A stretch of DNA of 22,410 bases from a virus. Of this stretch, positions 9,272-22,410 are shown piece after piece. The notes under the pieces were generated by a model that had not been told where the DNA came from, made no database searches, and saw only the letters and a list, made by a program, of their open reading frames with translations. The DNA is taken from IMG/VR virus record IMGVR_UViG_3300043436_003624, positions 1 through 22,410 of that record. One strand, 5' to 3'. Both the position numbers and the translations under genes were made by a program. Numbering within the stretch: the first letter of the stretch is position 1; every line of letters starts with the position of its first letter.

Positions 9272-10792
9272 TTAGCCTTCTGGAAACAACATCCATCCGC
9301 CTTGTGAAAATTCGCCTTCGTAACTTTTAGTCCAGTATTCACCTGTCCACTTGTACTGAGAACCTGTTGCTAGATTAGTAATGTAAATAGAATCTGTTTC
9401 TTCACTAGAATTAAAAATAACAGACCATTCGGAACCGTCATACTCTATTATGTCATTTTCACCAGCAACTAGATCTCCAAAAGGTGAATCAGCAGCCTTC
9501 CATCCATATGCACCGTCGTCGTTGGTTGCATTTCCAATTTTTCCTAACAGCATAACACGCAATCCAGCAACAAGTTTTGTAGTAGGGTTCCATCTTAGCG
9601 GATCAATAATATAATCAATGGATGTATAGCTGGTTGGATTTCTTGCAGGCCCAGGCAATACAGTATTGCTAGGTAATGTGTCACTGTCCCAATCAACAAA
9701 TAATTCGCTCGGTTTGAGAGGATTTACAGTAACATATCCTACTACATAAGTACCGTCGTCTTTTAAAATTCGTATTTGACTTATTCCGGGCTTATAACAT
9801 CCGGGATACGCATCAAACAGTGAATCCCAATTCATAGATCCGATAGTACCCTTGTCTATTACATACGCTTTATTACCAATTACATATAATCCTAATGACA
9901 ACCAAGTACTGTTCATAGATGTTGAGCCCGGCTGACGAGGTTTAATTTTTCTAGTAACTCGAATGTCCATTTCTCCAGTACCATCGTTTGGAAACTGACC
10001 ATCATCTACAATTCTTTCTGCAACACCATCGACGTTTGTTAATTCTCTTTCTTCGACAATTTCAAAATTATTTGCATCTAGCAAATTGGTCGGTGTACTT
10101 ATACCTAAGTCTATATTTCCTTGACTTTCAGTAAAGATGCTAGTGATGATGTTAGTAATAACACCTAAGCGTTTTACTTTTGCAGGAGGTGAAATATATA
10201 TAGGTGTAGTAAATGCAAGAGTGGCTATATCTATCTCACTTTCTAATCCTACAGGGATAGATCTATTACTAAATTCTATTCTATCTAAATTAACTACAGT
10301 TAGACTGGTCCAATCAACAAAGTTATCGGTTGTCTGTATTTCTAAGCTAGGATGAAATAGTGTTAAAATTTGCTCAACAATTTGTAATTTTTGATCTGTA
10401 TTGCTGCTCCAAATGTCAACATTCACTGACAGATTATAAGGACTTGGCATAAGACGTTCTACTGTATAGTTACGACCTTGCGTATTTAAATATTCTTGAC
10501 CTGAATCGTCAACAGCACGTTCTCTTATATGAACTTTACTTACAAACGAAGAATCGCTAGTACGAGTTCTGTCCATTTCGAGACCTGTTATGTATACTGC
10601 CATTCGTGGTACACTGGGTAATTTATTTTCAGAATTATCTTTAATAATAGACGCAACTTGACGAGTTAAATCACCGTATAGTACAGGAACCTGTTTAACA
10701 TCGCCATCACCATCCTTGTACGAAAAATTACTCATTAAACGTATTATTTGTGTTAAATATCTTCTAATCTGACCGTCATAAAAATGCAACAT
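9272..10792 (-). CDS. 15: gp15-like proximal tail sheath stabilisation / tail completion protein, with long C-terminal extension
   Basis: The N-terminal ~215 residues follow T4 gp15. MLHFYDGQIRRYLTQIIRLM parallels the T4 start (MFGYFYNSSFRRYATLM); a PSPYNLSVNVDIWSSNTDQ stretch is followed by QIVEQIL..FHP; and a final strand leads to ..YISPP. In T4, gp15 forms a ring at the head-proximal end of the tail, stabilises the contracted sheath and joins the neck gp13/gp14. T4 gp15 has about 270 residues; this one has 506, so roughly 290 residues are extra. The tail of the extension has W/Y- and DG-rich segments (EYDGSEWSVIF, YKWTGEYWTK) like those in gp14 and gp18 here. The start overlaps the gp14 stop (TAATG), which fits translational coupling. 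It lies on the minus strand, unlike gp13 and gp18. Confidence 0.87.
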   Translation of the reverse strand: MLHFYDGQIRRYLTQIIRLMSNFSYKDGDGDVKQVPVLYGDLTRQVASIIKDNSENKLPSVPRMAVYITGLEMDRTRTSDSSFVSKVHIRERAVDDSGQEYLNTQGRNYTVERLMPSPYNLSVNVDIWSSNTDQKLQIVEQILTLFHPSLEIQTTDNFVDWTSLTVVNLDRIEFSNRSIPVGLESEIDIATLAFTTPIYISPPAKVKRLGVITNIITSIFTESQGNIDLGISTPTNLLDANNFEIVEERELTNVDGVAERIVDDGQFPNDGTGEMDIRVTRKIKPRQPGSTSMNSTWLSLGLYVIGNKAYVIDKGTIGSMNWDSLFDAYPGCYKPGISQIRILKDDGTYVVGYVTVNPLKPSELFVDWDSDTLPSNTVLPGPARNPTSYTSIDYIIDPLRWNPTTKLVAGLRVMLLGKIGNATNDDGAYGWKAADSPFGDLVAGENDIIEYDGSEWSVIFNSSEETDSIYITNLATGSQYKWTGEYWTKSYEGEFSQGGWMLFPEG

Positions 10793-11949
10793 TAGTTATC
10801 TGCCCTTGGTCTTAATGCTTTACTAAGGCTTTGTCTTTCAACAATTTCGTCGTCACAAATAGTGTTTGTATTTGTATTGTTGATAAATGTACCTTTTTGT
10901 GTTTGTCTTGTATTTGTATTTGACAAAGTATGTCTAACGTTGTCTTCAACTTTGACCCAACGAGCTCCGTCAAATCTAAAAAGTCTGTTTGGCATAAAAT
11001 CTGTTCGTAAAAAGTAATCACCTTTAACTGCGCTTAATGGAAATGTAATGCCGCTCCCAAAAGATTCGCCATTGGGTGCTAATCCGTCACCTAATAAATA
11101 ACCACTATATCCTGCACGTTCCGGTGTTTGATTTACCCTGTCTGCTATTTCATTTTGTGTTGATGCATCGAGAGATGTCAAATCTGCGGTAACTAATTCT
11201 GTTCTTCCGTTTTGGTCAACTTGTAATGTATAAAAGTGACTGATGTCGTACCCGCTTAATCCGGCATCTGCTTCGGCTTGTGCAATTACAGCATTGTTAA
11301 TTTGCATATCCTTTTCGTATGTGCTTAATACATCTCCTAGTGTAGTATCAGATCCTTCTTCAATTGGTAATTCGAGTATATCTTTATATTCCTGCGAAGC
11401 AGTAATTTGTTTTAATTTTAATCTATAAAGATGTGGATACCAAGTTTGGCTAAATCCTTCAGCTGCACGAGTAACTTCTTCTATTACATAATATCTTTTT
11501 AAAGCAACAGAATAATCATTTAATGCATATTCGTCTCTTAGATGTGGAAGTTCGATAACGTCACCTGACATTAGCTTACGCCCAATAGTTTTTACACTTG
11601 AATTAATATGTACAGTTACAAATAGAATATCATTAGATAAAAACAAACCAAATTGAGAAAGATTAAAATCATAATCTTGTAACTGATAGATTCCTCTAAT
11701 CCGATAAATGTCGCTATCATACTTTCTGTCTCTGTTTTCTAAAAGTAACAAATCTTGTATATTTGTTTCTTTTATTGCATCATACTGCGGTTGATCAGCA
11801 GTTGCATTTTCTGAAGTAGTATTTTTTGGACCAAGATACTTATGAACAAATAGATCTGTACCGCCTACAGAAAATTGTTCATTGATAATTTTATCAAAAA
11901 ATTCATAGTCATTACTTTTTTCGGGTCTATAGAGGCTTAAGCGTGGCAT
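10792..11949 (-). CDS. 14: gp14-like neck protein
   Basis: 385 residues. The start (SLYRPEKSNDYEFFDKII, then VGGTDLFVHKYLGP) and the end (a FLRTDFMPNRLFRFDGARW region, FINNTNTNTI and RQSLSKALRPRADN) agree with my recollection of the neck protein gp14 of marine T4-like phages. The middle holds the GDVIELPHLRD region matching GDLIYFP in T4 gp14. With gp13 the protein forms the neck to which the tail attaches after DNA packaging. It is longer than T4 gp14 (256 residues). Because family similarity starts within the first few residues, the ATG at 11949 is well supported, yet no Shine-Dalgarno sequence precedes it: a late-promoter-like octamer ends only four bases upstream. The gene is divergent from gp13. 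Confidence 0.8.
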   Translation of the reverse strand: MPRLSLYRPEKSNDYEFFDKIINEQFSVGGTDLFVHKYLGPKNTTSENATADQPQYDAIKETNIQDLLLLENRDRKYDSDIYRIRGIYQLQDYDFNLSQFGLFLSNDILFVTVHINSSVKTIGRKLMSGDVIELPHLRDEYALNDYSVALKRYYVIEEVTRAAEGFSQTWYPHLYRLKLKQITASQEYKDILELPIEEGSDTTLGDVLSTYEKDMQINNAVIAQAEADAGLSGYDISHFYTLQVDQNGRTELVTADLTSLDASTQNEIADRVNQTPERAGYSGYLLGDGLAPNGESFGSGITFPLSAVKGDYFLRTDFMPNRLFRFDGARWVKVEDNVRHTLSNTNTRQTQKGTFINNTNTNTICDDEIVERQSLSKALRPRADN

Positions 11950-11953
11950 ATTA

Positions 11954-11961
11954 TATTTATT
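11954..11961 (-). promoter_or_regulatory. Late-type promoter octamer for gp14 (AATAAATA, 4 bases from ATG)
   Basis: On the minus strand AATAAATA is followed by TAAT and then the gp14 ATG (11949). T4 late promoters consist of TATAAATA with transcription starting about six bases downstream, which here falls within one base of the ATG. It abuts, sharing one base, the plus-strand octamer of gp13, so the two divergent late promoters are back to back. The match is to a short AT-rich motif, so the evidence is the position and the repetition of the arrangement elsewhere in the window. Confidence 0.5.
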
Positions 11962-11968
11962 ATAAATA
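11961..11968 (+). promoter_or_regulatory. Late promoter octamer for gp13 (TATAAATA)
   Basis: A perfect T4 late-promoter consensus, 17 bases before the gp13 ATG. A GGAG ribosome site (11974-11977) lies between. The predicted transcript starts near 11974 and would just include the ribosome site. Confidence 0.65.
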
Positions 11969-11985
11969 CATGTGGAGAATACTCA

Positions 11986-12747
11986 ATGGACAGCAATTTA
12001 GTAACCTACAAACAAGAAGTTTATGATTATATACATGCTATGCTTGGCGGCGGCATGGTTGATGTTGAACTAGACCCTATTCATTATGAAACTGCATTAA
12101 ACAGAGCGTTGGGTAAATTTAGACAAAAAAGTGGTAACAGTGTTGAAGAAAGTTATGTAACTTTAAAGTTAATAAATGATACTAACGAATACATATTACC
12201 GCATGAAATAATAGAAGTAAGACAGTGTTTTAGAAGGAGTGTTGGCAGTAGAAGCGGTGGCGGCGATGGAAGCAGCTTATTTGAACCATTTAATCTTGCA
12301 TACACAAACACTTATTTGTTAGCTGGTTCTGGAATGGGCGGATTATTAACATACGAATTATTTGCTCAGCAACAAGAACTGGTAGGCAGAATGTTTGGTA
12401 GTTTTATCGAATTTGTTTGGAACCCACCGACTAGAAAACTTACATTACTACAACGTCCTAGAGCAGGCGAAGAAATTTTACTGTTTTGTTATAATCATAG
12501 ACCAGATAGTGAATTGTTAACTGACTATCTTGCCAAACAATGGATTAAAGATTATGCACTTGCTACATGCAAGTACATGTTAGGCGAAGCAAGAGAAAAG
12601 TTTGCAACAATTGCGGGTCCACAAGGCGGCACCAGTTTAAATGGTACTGCACTCAAAGCAGAAGCAAGTGCAGAAATTGAAAAACTTGACAACGAAGCAG
12701 CTCTTGCAGTTGCCGGCGGATACGGTTACGGATTTCTAATCGGCTAA
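11986..12747 (+). CDS. 13: gp13-like neck protein
   Basis: 253 residues. The start (LVTYKQEVYDYIHAMLGGG, VDVELDPIHYETALNRALGK) corresponds to the N-terminal helix and 'LG.P.I.VEL...Q...C..RALE' segment of T4 gp13. EEILLFCYNH, DYLAKQWIKDYALATCK and a Gly-rich end (GGYGYGFLIG) are typical of the marine versions. gp13 caps the filled head together with gp14 and provides the docking surface for the tail. The length is close to cyanophage gp13 and slightly shorter than T4 gp13 (309). The GGAG ribosome site is well placed. It is the first gene of the rightward cluster, whereas its partners gp14 and gp15 run leftward from the same 36-base gap. Confidence 0.85.
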   Translation: MDSNLVTYKQEVYDYIHAMLGGGMVDVELDPIHYETALNRALGKFRQKSGNSVEESYVTLKLINDTNEYILPHEIIEVRQCFRRSVGSRSGGGDGSSLFEPFNLAYTNTYLLAGSGMGGLLTYELFAQQQELVGRMFGSFIEFVWNPPTRKLTLLQRPRAGEEILLFCYNHRPDSELLTDYLAKQWIKDYALATCKYMLGEAREKFATIAGPQGGTSLNGTALKAEASAEIEKLDNEAALAVAGGYGYGFLIG

Positions 12748-12750
12748 CTT

Positions 12751-13260
12751 ATGTCAAAAAAATATAATGTTAAAATAGATAATAGTTCTAAACAAAATAT
12801 AAATTACAACGGCAAACCGACCAGAGAACATTTTATTGATTCTTTAATTAAAAAAAATTCGTGGACTGTTGGAGTTGAAGTAGGAACAAGAATCGGAAGA
12901 ACATTATTTCATCTTTTAGATAGCAATCCTACGTTAAAAATGTACAGCGTTGACAAAGATATTAGTCAATTTTATAATACTAAAATTAAAGAAAAGTATA
13001 AAGATAGATTGATTGTACTCGAAGGTTCGAGCTGGGAACAATCAGGTAATATAAATGAAAAAATAGACTTTGTGTTTATTGACGCTAGCCACACATACAA
13101 AAATGTAGTTAAAGATATAAAGGCATATAGTCCATTATTAAAAACCACAGCAGGACTATTAGGACATGATATAAACATGTATCCTGTACAAGATGCTGTA
13201 GTTGATTGCGGTTTTAAGTATTTAATAGGACCTGATAACGTCTGGTTGACAAGTTTTTAA
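12751..13260 (+). CDS. Class I SAM-dependent methyltransferase
   Basis: 169 residues with a Rossmann-type methyltransferase layout. The SAM-binding first motif is VGVEVGTRIGRT (40-51, acidic E43 then G-x-x-x-G); the second acidic strand end is YSVDKD (65-70); DFVFIDASHTYKNVVKDI at 106-123 resembles the Methyltransf_24 family; and GLLGHD is at 135-140. The acceptor cannot be read from the sequence. The start is three bases after the gp13 stop with no clear ribosome site, suggesting translation coupled to gp13. It is not part of the T4 neck or tail set and looks like accessory cargo placed between gp13 and gp18. Confidence 0.82.
   Translation: MSKKYNVKIDNSSKQNINYNGKPTREHFIDSLIKKNSWTVGVEVGTRIGRTLFHLLDSNPTLKMYSVDKDISQFYNTKIKEKYKDRLIVLEGSSWEQSGNINEKIDFVFIDASHTYKNVVKDIKAYSPLLKTTAGLLGHDINMYPVQDAVVDCGFKYLIGPDNVWLTSF
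12950..12978 (+). promoter_or_regulatory. Perfect-consensus sigma70 -35/-10 pair inside the methyltransferase gene
   Basis: TTGACA at 12950-12955, a 17-base spacer and TATAAT at 12973-12978 lie within the methyltransferase coding sequence. Both hexamers and the spacing are ideal. It would transcribe the 3' part of this gene and the P-loop kinase. The codons involved (V-D-K-D-I-S-Q-F-Y-N) are plausible protein sequence, and an AT-rich genome can produce such a match by chance, so use in vivo is uncertain. Confidence 0.45.
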
Positions 13261-13274
13261 ATTAATGTTATAAA
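13246..13274 (+). promoter_or_regulatory. Sigma70-type promoter with extended -10 before the kinase gene
   Basis: TTGACA at 13246-13251, a 17-base spacer and TATAAA at 13269-13274 preceded by TGT. It has the same layout as the promoter at 6018-6046. The predicted start is near 13281, just before an AAGG ribosome site (13282-13285) and the ATG at 13294. The -35 box overlaps the end of the methyltransferase gene. Confidence 0.68.
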
Positions 13275-13293
13275 CTTTAAAAAGGTCAATGCA

Positions 13294-13800
13294 ATGAATT
13301 TACTTCCAAAACTATTAATTATTGGTCATGGAAGACATGGAAAAGATACTGTCTGCGAAATTTTAAGAGATACTTACGGTTTTAGTTTTGAAAGTAGTAG
13401 CAAATTTTGTAGTAAATTGTTCATTTATAATAATCTTAAAGACAAGTATGGATATTCTAATGAAGAAGAGTGTTATGCTGATAGACATAATCACAGAGCA
13501 GAATGGTATGATGCTATCTGCAATTATAATGTTCCTGATGCAGCTAAACTAGGACGAGAAATTTTTAAGGCACACGACATCTATTGTGGCCTTCGAAATA
13601 AACGTGAATTTTTTGCTATGAAGAATACACAAGTGTTCGATCTTGCTATTTGGGTTGACCGCAGCGATTGTTTACCGCTAGAATCTAAAGATAGTATGAG
13701 CTTAGAGCATTGGATGGCAGATTTTACTATTGATAACAATGGATCAATAGATGATTTAGTTTTTAATACTAAACAACTTATAACTAATATATTAAATTAA
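13294..13800 (+). CDS. P-loop kinase, deoxynucleoside-monophosphate-kinase-like
   Basis: 168 residues starting with a P-loop (LLIIGHGRHGKDTVCEIL, residues 7-24; G11-x4-G16-K17-D18-T19). The GKD[ST] form is typical of dNMP kinases such as T4 gp1, which phosphorylate deoxynucleoside monophosphates for DNA synthesis. The following SSSKF segment, the conserved LGREIF, the VDRSDC strand and the closing FTIDNNGSIDDL parallel T4 gp1's HVVRPG and DLVITNDGSLEEL. It is shorter than T4 gp1 (241 residues), so the base-recognition insert may be reduced. The nearby sigma70-like promoters would let it be expressed early, unlike its late structural neighbours, in keeping with a nucleotide-metabolism role. 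Confidence 0.7.
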   Translation: MNLLPKLLIIGHGRHGKDTVCEILRDTYGFSFESSSKFCSKLFIYNNLKDKYGYSNEEECYADRHNHRAEWYDAICNYNVPDAAKLGREIFKAHDIYCGLRNKREFFAMKNTQVFDLAIWVDRSDCLPLESKDSMSLEHWMADFTIDNNGSIDDLVFNTKQLITNILN

Positions 13801-13808
13801 AATTAAAC

Positions 13809-13850: not shown

Positions 13851-13858
13851 GCTAAATA
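13851..13858 (+). promoter_or_regulatory. Late promoter octamer for gp18 (GCTAAATA)
   Basis: A variant of TATAAATA in the 94-base gap before the sheath gene. Predicted transcription start is near 13864, giving a leader of about 30 bases with an AAGGAG ribosome site at 13879-13884. Confidence 0.55.
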
Positions 13859-13894
13859 ATAATAGCAACGAAATCCACAAGGAGAAAACACACA

Positions 13895-17215: not shown

Positions 17216-17223
17216 GATAAATA
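17216..17223 (+). promoter_or_regulatory. Late promoter octamer for gp19 (GATAAATA)
   Basis: It begins directly at the base of the preceding hairpin. The predicted start near 17229 gives a leader of about 19 bases with AAGGAG at 17232-17237, well placed for the ATG at 17248. Confidence 0.6.
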
Positions 17224-17247
17224 CTTGTAACAAGGAGTTAATTATAT

Positions 17248-17915: not shown

Positions 17916-17943
17916 AAAAGGGAGATTAATTTCTCCCTTTTTT
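17916..17943 (+). terminator. Intrinsic terminator after gp19
   Basis: AAAGGGAGA at 17917-17925 pairs with TCTCCCTTT at 17932-17940 around a six-base loop, and the T-run continues to 17943. It is a standard rho-independent terminator for the gp19 transcript. Confidence 0.85.
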
Positions 17944-17968
17944 CTTTATATTAGTGTTTTTTAAATTA

Positions 17969-17976
17969 GATAAATA
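17969..17976 (+). promoter_or_regulatory. Late promoter octamer five bases before an ATG (GATAAATA)
   Basis: The octamer is followed by TTTGT and the ATG at 17982. With T4 late spacing (start six bases after the octamer) the first transcribed base is the A of the ATG. No Shine-Dalgarno sequence lies upstream of the ATG, so the predicted mRNA is leaderless. Confidence 0.55.
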
Positions 17977-17981
17977 TTTGT

Positions 17982-18983
17982 ATGGCGTTTAATGGATATT
18001 ATGATAATTTTAGTTCGTACGGTAGCTTAAAAGGCAATTTAGGAGATTACGCCCACGCGGCCAAGCTGTATCGAGCAAATAACATGCTGCTGGCCCCTAA
18101 GGTTAAGTTTTTATTTCATGTTGTAGTTAATATAAATCCATCAGTGAGCACACCCGGTTTAAACAGAAGTGAAATAAATCTTTTAGCTAAGAGTATAGAT
18201 TTACCTAAATATAGAACACAAACTGAAACATTAAATCAATATAACAGAAAAAAAGTTTTACATACAACAGTACAATATCAACCGGTGGTTATTGAATTCC
18301 ACGATGATAATAAAGGTGCAACAACCAAGTTGTGGAACTCGTATTTTAATTATTATTATCAAGATAGTAGATATAGTACAGTTTCGGGGTCGTCGCCTAG
18401 TATAACAGAAAATGCATATCGCCGTACAGTTAGCGGGTTGAATACTGCTTATGGTTCGCCGGATATACAGACGTTTAGATATGGTCTTGACGCTCAAGGA
18501 AAAGTTTATAACTTTTTTACAAGCATACAAATATTTCAACTTCATCCTAAAAATACTGTTCCGACTTTTACCTCGTTTACATTAATAAATCCGTTAATTG
18601 AGTCGTTTGAACACGATAACATGAATTATAGCGAAAGCGATCTTACAACAAATAGACTAGCAATTTCTTTTGAATCTGTGCAATATGCCGAAGGTCCAAT
18701 TGTATTAGGTATATCTCCAACAGACTTCGGCGAGCCTGCTCACTATGATTTAGGAAAAAGTTCATTAAGCAATCCTTTTATTAATACTAATGTTAATAGT
18801 AGAATTAGCAACGTTAAAAAAACAAATGCCGCAGTAACATTATCAACTATAGAAAATCTTTTAAAGCCAGCAACTGTGGCTACACCACAAACAGTTGTTA
18901 CTACTAACCAATTAGGAAATATCGAATTTCCAACACAAAGTTCTGCGAGCAACACAACAGTTGCTTCTCAAAAAAGTTTTTAA
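17982..18983 (+). CDS. Second tail-tube-fold virion protein (gp19 / gp48 / gp54-type paralogue)
   Basis: 333 residues. Residues 36-120 resemble the tube fold in layout: a first long strand (APKVKFLFHVVVNINP), a 'LLAKSIDLPKYRTQTETLNQ' element parallel to the 'TRPN..FE' turn of gp19, a strand with VVIEFHDD, and the helix KLWNSYFNYYYQDSRY. Residues 170-260 hold paired strands (FFTSIQIFQLHP, FTLINPLIESFEHDN, RLAISFESVQYAEG). The last 75 residues are N/T/S-rich and probably flexible. T4 has tube-fold paralogues at the baseplate end (gp48, gp54), so a tube-initiating or terminating protein is a reasonable guess, but I cannot say which. It sits right after gp19 behind a terminator. There is no ribosome site, and the ATG is five bases from a late octamer. 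Confidence 0.65.
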   Translation: MAFNGYYDNFSSYGSLKGNLGDYAHAAKLYRANNMLLAPKVKFLFHVVVNINPSVSTPGLNRSEINLLAKSIDLPKYRTQTETLNQYNRKKVLHTTVQYQPVVIEFHDDNKGATTKLWNSYFNYYYQDSRYSTVSGSSPSITENAYRRTVSGLNTAYGSPDIQTFRYGLDAQGKVYNFFTSIQIFQLHPKNTVPTFTSFTLINPLIESFEHDNMNYSESDLTTNRLAISFESVQYAEGPIVLGISPTDFGEPAHYDLGKSSLSNPFINTNVNSRISNVKKTNAAVTLSTIENLLKPATVATPQTVVTTNQLGNIEFPTQSSASNTTVASQKSF

Positions 18984-19810: not shown

Positions 19811-20311
19811 ATGAATAAAAAATTAGAAGATTTATTTAATTTGCCCGAAGCAAAAGAAATATTAAAACAAGAAAAAAATAAAGAAAAAAAAGAACAGGAA
19901 GTTGAAATAGCAGAACAAAAAAAAGCATTTAGAGATATTGCAGAGTTTGATAAAATTGCTGCTGCCCTTCCAGCAGTTGATGGACTAGGTCAAATGGCAG
20001 ATCGAGAATTAAACGAAGTTGCCGACAAAGCCATGAGTGCATATGAAGATTTAATGGATCTTGGCATGAGTGTAGAAGCACGATTTTCTGGGCGTGTTTT
20101 TGAAGTAGCAGGAAACATGCTAAGAACTAGTTTAGATGCAAAAGTAGCTAAAATAGATAAAAAGTTAAAAATGATTGAGCTTCAGCTTAAAAAAGAAAAA
20201 CAAGACAAAGATGTAACCAATGATTCGAACTTTACCGAAGGCGAAGGCTATGTAGTAACAGACAGAAATAGCTTATTACAGCGTCTCAAAGGCATAGACA
20301 AAGATAAATAA
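19811..20311 (+). CDS. 16: gp16-like small terminase subunit
   Basis: 166 residues. The N-terminal part is very rich in K and E (helical, coiled-coil-like). The middle (ELNEVADKAMSAYEDLMDLG, then ARFSGRVFEVAGNMLRTSLD) followed by a K-rich helix KIDKKLKMIELQLKKEK is the antiparallel helical-hairpin core of T4 gp16, and the end (DVTNDSNFTEGEGYVVTDRN) corresponds to its C-terminal tail. gp16 recognises DNA and stimulates the gp17 motor during packaging. An AAAAGGAAAG ribosome site precedes the ATG at 19811; an in-frame GTG at 19760 lies inside gp4 and is rejected. Unlike T4, where gp16 directly adjoins gp17, two genes separate them here. Confidence 0.78.
   Translation: MNKKLEDLFNLPEAKEILKQEKNKEKKEQEVEIAEQKKAFRDIAEFDKIAAALPAVDGLGQMADRELNEVADKAMSAYEDLMDLGMSVEARFSGRVFEVAGNMLRTSLDAKVAKIDKKLKMIELQLKKEKQDKDVTNDSNFTEGEGYVVTDRNSLLQRLKGIDKDK
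20303..20310 (+). promoter_or_regulatory. Late promoter octamer (GATAAATA) at the end of gp16
   Basis: It overlaps the gp16 stop codon and lies 22 bases before the ATG at 20333. The predicted start near 20316 leaves room for a weak AGGA ribosome site around 20320. Confidence 0.5.
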
Positions 20312-20332: not shown

Positions 20333-20881
20333 ATGAAAAAACTTAACGAGTATATCACCGAATCTAAAAAAACTTATCCTTTTAAGATAGGTATTGCTGG
20401 AGATATTCCAGCTGATACTAAAGAAAAGTTACAGATTCATTTAGAAAAATTTGGTGTTTCTAATTTAAGTGCAGGAAAAAGAACTCCGATACAAGAGCGT
20501 CCGCTAGACTTTCCTAACTTAGAAAATTTAGAAGTAACATATTTCGAAGTAGAATTAACATATCCTACTACAGATAATGTGTTGCGCGAATACTTAGGAA
20601 GTGTGTGTAATTTTCCTAGAAGTCATATAGTTGTTAGAAATGCAAACGGCCCTCTAGAAGAAATTCAAGACAGTGCAGAAGATGCTACATACGAAACTCT
20701 ATTAACCAAAGAAGACATGGGTGGAGAAAGTGCGCAAGCATCTGTTGGTAATTCACGTGTAATGGATTTATTAAAAGAACTAGAAATAGCACGTAAGGAA
20801 CGTGATAAAAATTCCAGTGGTTTCAAGATTGAAACATTTAAAGAGGAACCACAAAATAAAAAAAGTGTGGTAGGAAAATAA
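20333..20881 (+). CDS. Candidate internal head protein with capsid-targeting-like N-terminus
   Basis: 182 residues. The first ten residues, MKKLNEYITE followed by SKK, resemble the capsid-targeting peptide of T4 internal proteins (MKTYQEFIAE followed by A). Both share M-K, E6, aromatic 7, I8 and E10, and both end in the [LI]-x-E site cut by the gp21 prohead protease. If it works the same way, the protein enters the prohead and is trimmed after E10. Residues 15-105 form a compact alpha/beta region (FKIGIAGDIPADTKEKLQIH, then VTYFEVELTYPTTDNVLREY); the rest is polar and helical. I do not recognise this domain. The gene is between gp16 and gp17, with its own late octamer, and the next ATG follows three bases after its stop. 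The packaging role is inference from the peptide. Confidence 0.7.
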   Translation: MKKLNEYITESKKTYPFKIGIAGDIPADTKEKLQIHLEKFGVSNLSAGKRTPIQERPLDFPNLENLEVTYFEVELTYPTTDNVLREYLGSVCNFPRSHIVVRNANGPLEEIQDSAEDATYETLLTKEDMGGESAQASVGNSRVMDLLKELEIARKERDKNSSGFKIETFKEEPQNKKSVVGK

Positions 20882-21601: not shown

Positions 21602-21627
21602 AAAAAGCGCCGAGAGGCGCTTTTTTT
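21602..21627 (+). terminator. Intrinsic terminator before gp17
   Basis: GCGCC at 21607-21611 pairs with GGCGC at 21616-21620 around a GAGA tetraloop, extended by the flanking A- and T-runs and followed by seven T. It starts right after the stop of the preceding gene and would separate gp17 from the upstream transcript. Confidence 0.92.
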
Positions 21628-21630
21628 ATT

Positions 21631-21638
21631 GCTAAATA
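21631..21638 (+). promoter_or_regulatory. Late promoter octamer four bases before the gp17 ATG (GCTAAATA)
   Basis: It lies between the terminator and the ATG at 21643, separated from it by TTTT. By T4 late spacing transcription would begin within one base of the start codon. No Shine-Dalgarno sequence is available, because the upstream bases are the terminator T-run and this octamer. Confidence 0.5.
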
Positions 21639-21642
21639 TTTT

Positions 21643-22410
21643 ATGGGAAAAAGTTTAGACGGCGTATTAGTTAAAAAAGCCAATCAAAAAGAAACATATA
21701 CTGAAAAGCAAATTGAAGATCTACTTAAATGTATGGATCCAGACGAAGGATATTTGCACTTTGCAAAACACTTTGCTTATATTCAACACCCAGTTAAGGG
21801 TAAGTTACTTTTTGAGCCTTACGAATATCAGTTGAGATTACTGCACAGTTATCACAACTATAGATTTAACATTAATATGATGCCTCGACAAACAGGTAAA
21901 ACAACTTGTGCTGCAATTTATCTTTGCTGGTATGCAATGTTTCATCCTGACCAAACTATCCTTATTGCAGCACACAAGTACACCGGCGCACAAGAAATCA
22001 TGCAACGTGTAAGATATGTATACGAAACTTGCCCTGATCATATTCGTGCAGGCGCAACCGGCTACGCAAAAGGCTTTATTGAATTTGAAAACGGTTCGCG
22101 TATTGTAAGTCAAACAACTACAGGCAATACAGGTCGTGGTATGAGTATTTCGTTACTATATTGTGACGAATTTGCATTCGTGCAGCCCAACATAGCAGAA
22201 GAATTTTGGACCTCAATTTCGCCTACACTTGCAACGGGTGGACGAGCAATTATTACGTCAACTCCAAACAGCGACGAAGACACATTTGCTACAATATGGA
22301 AACAAGCTGAACAAAAATTTGACGAATTTGGTAACGAAAGCGACTTGGGCACCAATGGGTTTCATGCATTTAGAGCTCATTGGAACGAACACCCCGATCG
22401 CGACGAAACG
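21643..22410 (+). CDS. 17: gp17-like large terminase subunit, N-terminal ATPase half (3' end outside window)
   Basis: The packaging motor ATPase and headful nuclease. 256 codons are visible. The adenine-binding Q lies in EPYEYQLRLL; Walker A is NMMPRQTGKTT (residues 78-88, T4 SRQLGKTT); Walker B with catalytic Glu is LLYCDEFAFV (171-180, E176); and the coupling motif is TSTPN (205-209). The nuclease domain lies beyond the window. The N-terminus is about 85 residues shorter than in T4 gp17. The only ATG between the in-frame stop at 21598 and the conserved region that fits is 21643; the next Met is residue 31. It has its own terminator-isolated late promoter and no ribosome site. Confidence 0.93.
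   Translation, partial: MGKSLDGVLVKKANQKETYTEKQIEDLLKCMDPDEGYLHFAKHFAYIQHPVKGKLLFEPYEYQLRLLHSYHNYRFNINMMPRQTGKTTCAAIYLCWYAMFHPDQTILIAAHKYTGAQEIMQRVRYVYETCPDHIRAGATGYAKGFIEFENGSRIVSQTTTGNTGRGMSISLLYCDEFAFVQPNIAEEFWTSISPTLATGGRAIITSTPNSDEDTFATIWKQAEQKFDEFGNESDLGTNGFHAFRAHWNEHPDRDET

Follow-up and report, generated by a model that had tools for sequence, protein, structure and literature searches.

Predicted leaderless late mRNAs from T4-type promoters that abut the start codon in a group of large phages

It seems highly probable (roughly 0.87 by our own estimate) that T4-type late promoters start transcription at the AUG itself in the window, a 22.4-kb virus record analysed over its entire 22,410 nucleotides, such that the tube-fold gene, gp14 and gp17 are first on leaderless late mRNAs. 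By this mechanism, gp55 together with host RNA polymerase would read the late octamer, with the A of the ATG as the first transcribed base. The resulting mRNA would lack a Shine-Dalgarno (SD) sequence, and the ribosome would most likely bind the 5′-terminal AUG. Leaderless genes would then represent a fixed second late class, beside a class with a leader and SD, in the window's phage group. What we observe for the leaderless class is the motif, its rigid spacing, its conservation, the split into two classes, the absence of an SD and the presence of terminators upstream. The initial annotation had predicted a leaderless late mRNA for the tube-fold gene, and this is supported by a peak at spacings of 4-5 nt and by the pyrimidine at −1 described below. 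No 5′ ends have been mapped, and the 5′ end itself, the dependence on gp55 and leaderless translation are inferences.

Direct reading of the window places the octamer GATAAATA (17969-17976), the spacer TTTGT (17977-17981) and the ATG (17982-17984) of the tube-fold gene one immediately after another (Table 1), exactly as had been annotated. Also in agreement with that annotation, no SD motif precedes this ATG, and its A stands six bases past the octamer. The start-site rule on which the annotation relied is the published T4 rule, in which the late octamer lies at −13 to −6 (PMC1524935). Given this rule and a 5-nt spacer, the A of the tube-fold ATG is +1, and with this assignment GATAAATA meets the T4-type late-promoter distance.

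IMG/VR was searched with the gp14, gp17 and tube-fold proteins to collect relatives of the window. Among 42 distinct tube-fold upstream regions, which span 39 to 97% identity, the spacing is 4 (n = 13), 5 (n = 22) or 6 (n = 6), with a single exception in which the octamer lies at 20 nt and is accompanied by a GGAG SD. Terminator-like hairpins are found upstream of the gene in most relatives. The structure model of the tube-fold protein is of low confidence (pLDDT 59) and was used only as confirmation of the tube fold; Foldseek ranks a chain from the T4 baseplate-tail tube complex highest for this model. A PDB sequence search with the profile of this protein gave no match.

Table 1. Late-gene features of the window. 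Promoter, start-site and leaderless assignments are predictions.
Feature	Position	Strand	Remarks
gp14-like neck/virion structural protein, predicted leaderless	10792..11949	-	PHROG 11591 E=1.6e-92
Late octamer AATAAATA of gp14, 4 nt (TAAT) from ATG	11954..11961	-	
gp13 late octamer TATAAATA, back to back with that of gp14	11961..11968	+	Leader + GGAG 11974-11977
gp13 head-tail adaptor, leader class, octamer 17 nt upstream	11986..12747	+	PHROG 211 E=3.3e-31
Late octamer of gp18 sheath, leader class, 36 nt upstream	13851..13858	+	AAGGAG 13879-13884
Late octamer of gp19 tail tube, leader class, 24 nt upstream	17216..17223	+	AAGGAG 17232-17237
Intrinsic terminator between gp19 and tube-fold gene	17916..17941	+	RNA fold -15.9 kcal/mol, z -4.6
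Late-promoter octamer GATAAATA of tube-fold gene	17969..17976	+	Spacing kept in 41/42 distinct relatives
5-nt spacer TTTGT, -1 pyrimidine, predicted +1 = A of ATG	17977..17981	+	
Tail-tube-fold structural protein, 333 aa, predicted leaderless	17982..18983	+	PHROG 4542 tail tube E=2.7e-18
Late octamer 22 nt ahead of virion gene at 20333, AGGA, leader class	20303..20310	+	
Intrinsic terminator ahead of gp17	21602..21625	+	
Late octamer GCTAAATA of gp17, 4 nt (TTTT) from ATG at 21643	21631..21638	+	
gp17 terminase large subunit, cut by window end, predicted leaderless	21643..22410	+	PHROG 36964 E=1.8e-55

The same layout had been noted for gp17 and for gp14 (on the minus strand), and the sequence confirms a spacing of 4 in both cases. 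For gp17, TAAATA is present at 4-5 nt in 33 of the 38 relatives listed, and the other five carry TAAGTA in the same place. This TAAGTA core, found at the same 5-nt spacing in L100, L102, L118, L123 and L146, is possibly a late-promoter variant. In the relative G005, the gp17 octamer has moved to 19 nt and an SD is present.

The spacing ahead of gp14 is 4-5 in 57 of 80 relative loci, many of which are near-identical, with a spacing of 8 in 22 loci and 23 in one. The last of these, the sole locus outside the short-spacing class (L066, ~10001), has a gp14 with an apparent ATT start, an octamer 23 nt upstream and AGGAG. The neighboring gp13 side carries an SD and a spacing of 13-20 in 31 of 31 distinct relatives, and the gp14 side is without SD. 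In PA5oct, Phosso, RaK2 and CBB, the octamer of the gp14 orthologue lies 19-32 nt away and an SD-like motif is present, and the orthologue in Atu_ph07 has a long leader with no clear SD. The divergent gp13 and gp14 late promoters are about 2 to 40 bp apart (window 11947-11990; gp14 loci L011-L090), and two polymerases may be unable to bind these adjoining promoters simultaneously. This gene pair offers a ready contrast in which one promoter type occurs back to back with and without a leader.

Octamer, leader and SD are indeed all carried by gp13, gp18 and gp19 (GGAG, AAGGAG and AAGGAG, respectively), as had been annotated, including the strong AAGGAG sites of sheath and tube. That the two classes might set expression level is a hypothesis with which the data merely agree: it fits a leaderless class of low-copy proteins, in that the predicted leaderless genes include those of the terminase, neck and tube-fold proteins, whereas capsid, sheath and tube have strong SD sequences.

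The window contains 31 copies of TAAATA where 39.5 are expected, so that the motif is not enriched and only its placement is informative. Across the dereplicated pool of relatives, the gap between TAAATA and the first ATG of an ORF was 4 nt in 75 cases and 5 nt in 122, with none at 1-3 nt, one at 6 nt, smaller numbers at 7-9 nt and a broad hump at 13-27 nt. Permuted hexamers of the same composition yield no spike at 4-5, except for two that overlap TAAATA, and internal in-frame ATGs likewise give no spacing spike. Genes at spacing 4-5 were then counted in five relatives, taking gene starts by a simple longest-ORF rule in which the first four ATGs were considered and the nearest octamer was used, and with expectations derived by the same rule. 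The numbers found (expected) are 17 (1.8) in G001, 6 (0.4) in G002, 9 (0.7) in G003, 19 (1.1) in G004 and 29 (1.1) in G005, with Poisson p values of 2e-6 to 5e-31. In total, 80 genes carry TAAATA at 4-5 nt where about 5 are expected from neighboring spacings, although orthologues common to several genomes are not independent in these counts. A separate leader class of 167 genes in these genomes has the octamer at 13-40 nt, which substantiates the earlier claim that leader and leaderless-type late genes coexist in the same genomes, and the 80:167 ratio differs from that of controls (p 1e-22). No excess at spacing 4-5 is evident in T4, KVP40, Syn9, phiM12, PA5oct, RaK2 or Atu_ph07 (0 to 2 genes each). 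The tabulation of spacings across relatives thus gave the peak at 4-5 bases that had been predicted, confined to the window's phage group and pelagimyophages. Chance occurrence in AT-rich DNA is ruled out by the permuted hexamers, the internal ATGs and the control phages.

An independent sign comes from the base that precedes the start codon. RNA polymerase prefers a pyrimidine at −1 and a purine at +1. Position −1 is C or T in 78 of the 80 genes at spacing 4-5, again including orthologues that are not fully independent, versus 77 of 167 leader genes (46%; p 8e-18) and 43% of genes without an octamer. We take this to be the usual −1Y/+1A start signature. Four P-SSM2 genes at spacing 5 were set aside as chance, since only one has the −1 pyrimidine. 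The pyrimidine-purine step of the leader-class promoters in these genomes occurs most often at 4/5 and 5/6 nt past the octamer, with 108 of 126 having it at one position or the other, and the A of the leaderless ATG falls on just these positions when the spacing is 4 or 5. Pelagiphages and T4/KVP40 have the step at 5/6, and the leaderless genes of pelagiphages have almost only spacing 5. Because the 4/5 signal partly reflects positional base composition, this agreement is supportive but is not proof. SD-like motifs precede only 7 of the 80 genes versus 126 of the 167 leader-class genes, a lack that is partly forced because the octamer sits in the place of the SD. Start codons at spacing 4-5 comprise 62 ATG, one TTG and no GTG (G001-G004 plus HTVC008M).

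Reciprocal-best orthologue pairs within the clade include 46 in which both members are leaderless, 14 with a near spacing, 23 that pair leaderless with leader and 15 that pair leaderless with neither class. Orthologues in isolates and in T4 hardly ever belong to the leaderless class. As judged from these sequences, the class of a gene is changeable over evolution (23 leaderless/leader versus 46 leaderless/leaderless pairs), and this was counted against our preferred reading.

There remains a slim chance that the promoter is real and that transcription starts a few bases away from the ATG, giving a very short leader (1-5 nt) or heterogeneous starts, and thus near-leaderless messages. The gp14 loci with spacing 8 (22/80) and the tube-fold regions with spacing 6 (6/42) would leave 2-3 nt and are compatible with such an arrangement. 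However, no spacings other than 4 and 5 occur in most genes, where a pyrimidine precedes the A, and the pooled count has hardly any case at spacing 6.

Translation could also proceed from longer mRNAs started upstream, with TAAATA serving as an AU-rich ribosome-binding aid or being an AT-rich coincidence. The AT-richness of the intergenic DNA and the absence of TAAATA enrichment in the window can be cited for this explanation, which we nevertheless judge to be very improbable. A terminator lies upstream, the gene upstream of gp14 is divergent, and the octamer flanks (GATAAATA) are identical in both classes. Moreover, the spike is missing for permuted hexamers and internal ATGs, and phages of similar AT content show none. 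Even harder to credit is the proposal that the true start is an internal codon preceded by an SD and that the first ATG lies within the leader, for which no supporting evidence was found. The residues that follow the ATG of gp14 (MPRLSLY) and of gp17 (M-x-x-SLDG) are conserved as protein, with synonymous change, and most deposited HTVC008M starts agree in the region examined. Initiation of transcription at the A of the ATG remains the reading that we prefer.

The predicted promoters resemble those of T4 in having a TATAAATA-like octamer with the same start distance, in needing no −35 element, in residing on virion genes and in the presence of a gp55-like sigma in relatives. They differ in that the T4 octamer lies at least 12 nt before the late-gene ATG with an SD between, and spacing 4-5 is absent. 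A gp55-like late sigma (phrog_234) was identified in G001, G002 and G003 (E 2e-23 to 5e-23); the phrog_234 profile did not find one in G004, and the window is not long enough for an answer. Unlike in T4, gp33 and gp45 are not recognized in the jumbo genomes of the window's group, as models of the T4-type proteins gave no match in G001-G004 (nor in PA5oct, Atu_ph07 or RaK2), a result that counts against our preferred reading; divergence or replacement is possible. The isolated jumbo relatives PA5oct, RaK2, CBB, Atu_ph07 and Phosso share the gp14, gp17 and tube-fold orthologues and have late octamers, but the octamer is at least 19 nt upstream of gp14, mostly with an SD, and there is no leaderless excess.

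Initiation by 70S ribosomes at or near a 5′ AUG has been described (reviewed in PMC9031893). Leaderless mRNAs of bacteria and of the lambda cI gene likewise have a 5′-terminal AUG, which is only predicted here, and no SD. The class reported here differs from these in being large and conserved, in using a late-phage sigma promoter and in including essential virion genes. No description of leaderless T4-type late mRNAs was found in the open-licence literature searched, and as far as we could find this would be the first conserved leaderless class described on the T4-type late system. It would fix the start codons of hundreds of virion genes exactly, and would connect host translation with phage regulation in a way that can be tested.

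Several candidates for the switch between phages with and without the class were rejected. The ribosomal protein bS21 is encoded in G001, G004, HTVC008M, PA5oct and Atu_ph07 and does not separate the groups, as PA5oct and Atu_ph07 have bS21 without the class. Phage tRNA-Met is not discriminating, and an alphaproteobacterial host as such is not the cause, because the class is missing from two phages with hosts of this kind, Atu_ph07 and phiM12. A rather speculative possibility is that a two-class programme of late translation, with abundant SD-led proteins and scarce leaderless assembly proteins, possibly tuned by phage-encoded translation components such as bS21, arose independently in two families as an answer to host translation. 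Apart from these considerations, the 382-kb genome of G005 (L524-L542) has 40 tRNA genes by ARAGORN, one of which is labelled tRNA-Pyl. In G001 (302593-306413; L197), a divergent gene pair encodes a zeta-toxin-like kinase of 243 aa and a protein of 1019 aa, and the octamer-to-ATG distance is 4 nt for each gene.

In a group of large aquatic T4-like phages and, separately, in viruses of the ocean bacterium SAR11, the promoters of many late genes abut the start codon, and unlike those of T4 the messages should begin at the AUG without a ribosome-binding leader. HTVC008M (Kyanoviridae, host Pelagibacter) has 12 genes with TAAATA near the ATG, 11 at 5 nt and one at 4 nt, and these include gp2, gp4, gp25, gp48 and the tape measure. 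HTVC008M and its relatives have the same leaderless-type class as the window's group, but belong to another family and use almost only spacing 5. The deposited starts agree for most of the leaderless genes in the region examined. TAAATA-N5-ATG precedes gp48 in 20 of 20 distinct relatives that match from residue 1, and three more distant relatives also have an ATG at that distance. The class signal is weaker in Mosig (6 genes) and Melnitz (3), and Syn9, from the same family as HTVC008M, has no class genes. Earlier prediction of late promoters in pelagimyophages is reported to have failed (PMC7029224). Promoters that touch or overlap the gene start, and that filters for intergenic motifs may drop, would explain why the late promoters of SAR11 phages have been described as difficult to find.

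One further gene type occurs in the leaderless class of two phage families. A G001 protein of this class (275951-277990; L195) is a large membrane-type cyclase in which Pfam confirms CHASE2 and guanylate cyclase domains. Leaderless-class proteins that resemble it at the N-terminus are encoded in G004 (133242-135299; L205) and in Melnitz (54825 onward), and an annotated cyclase gene of HTVC008M (11972-13807) is also in the leaderless class.
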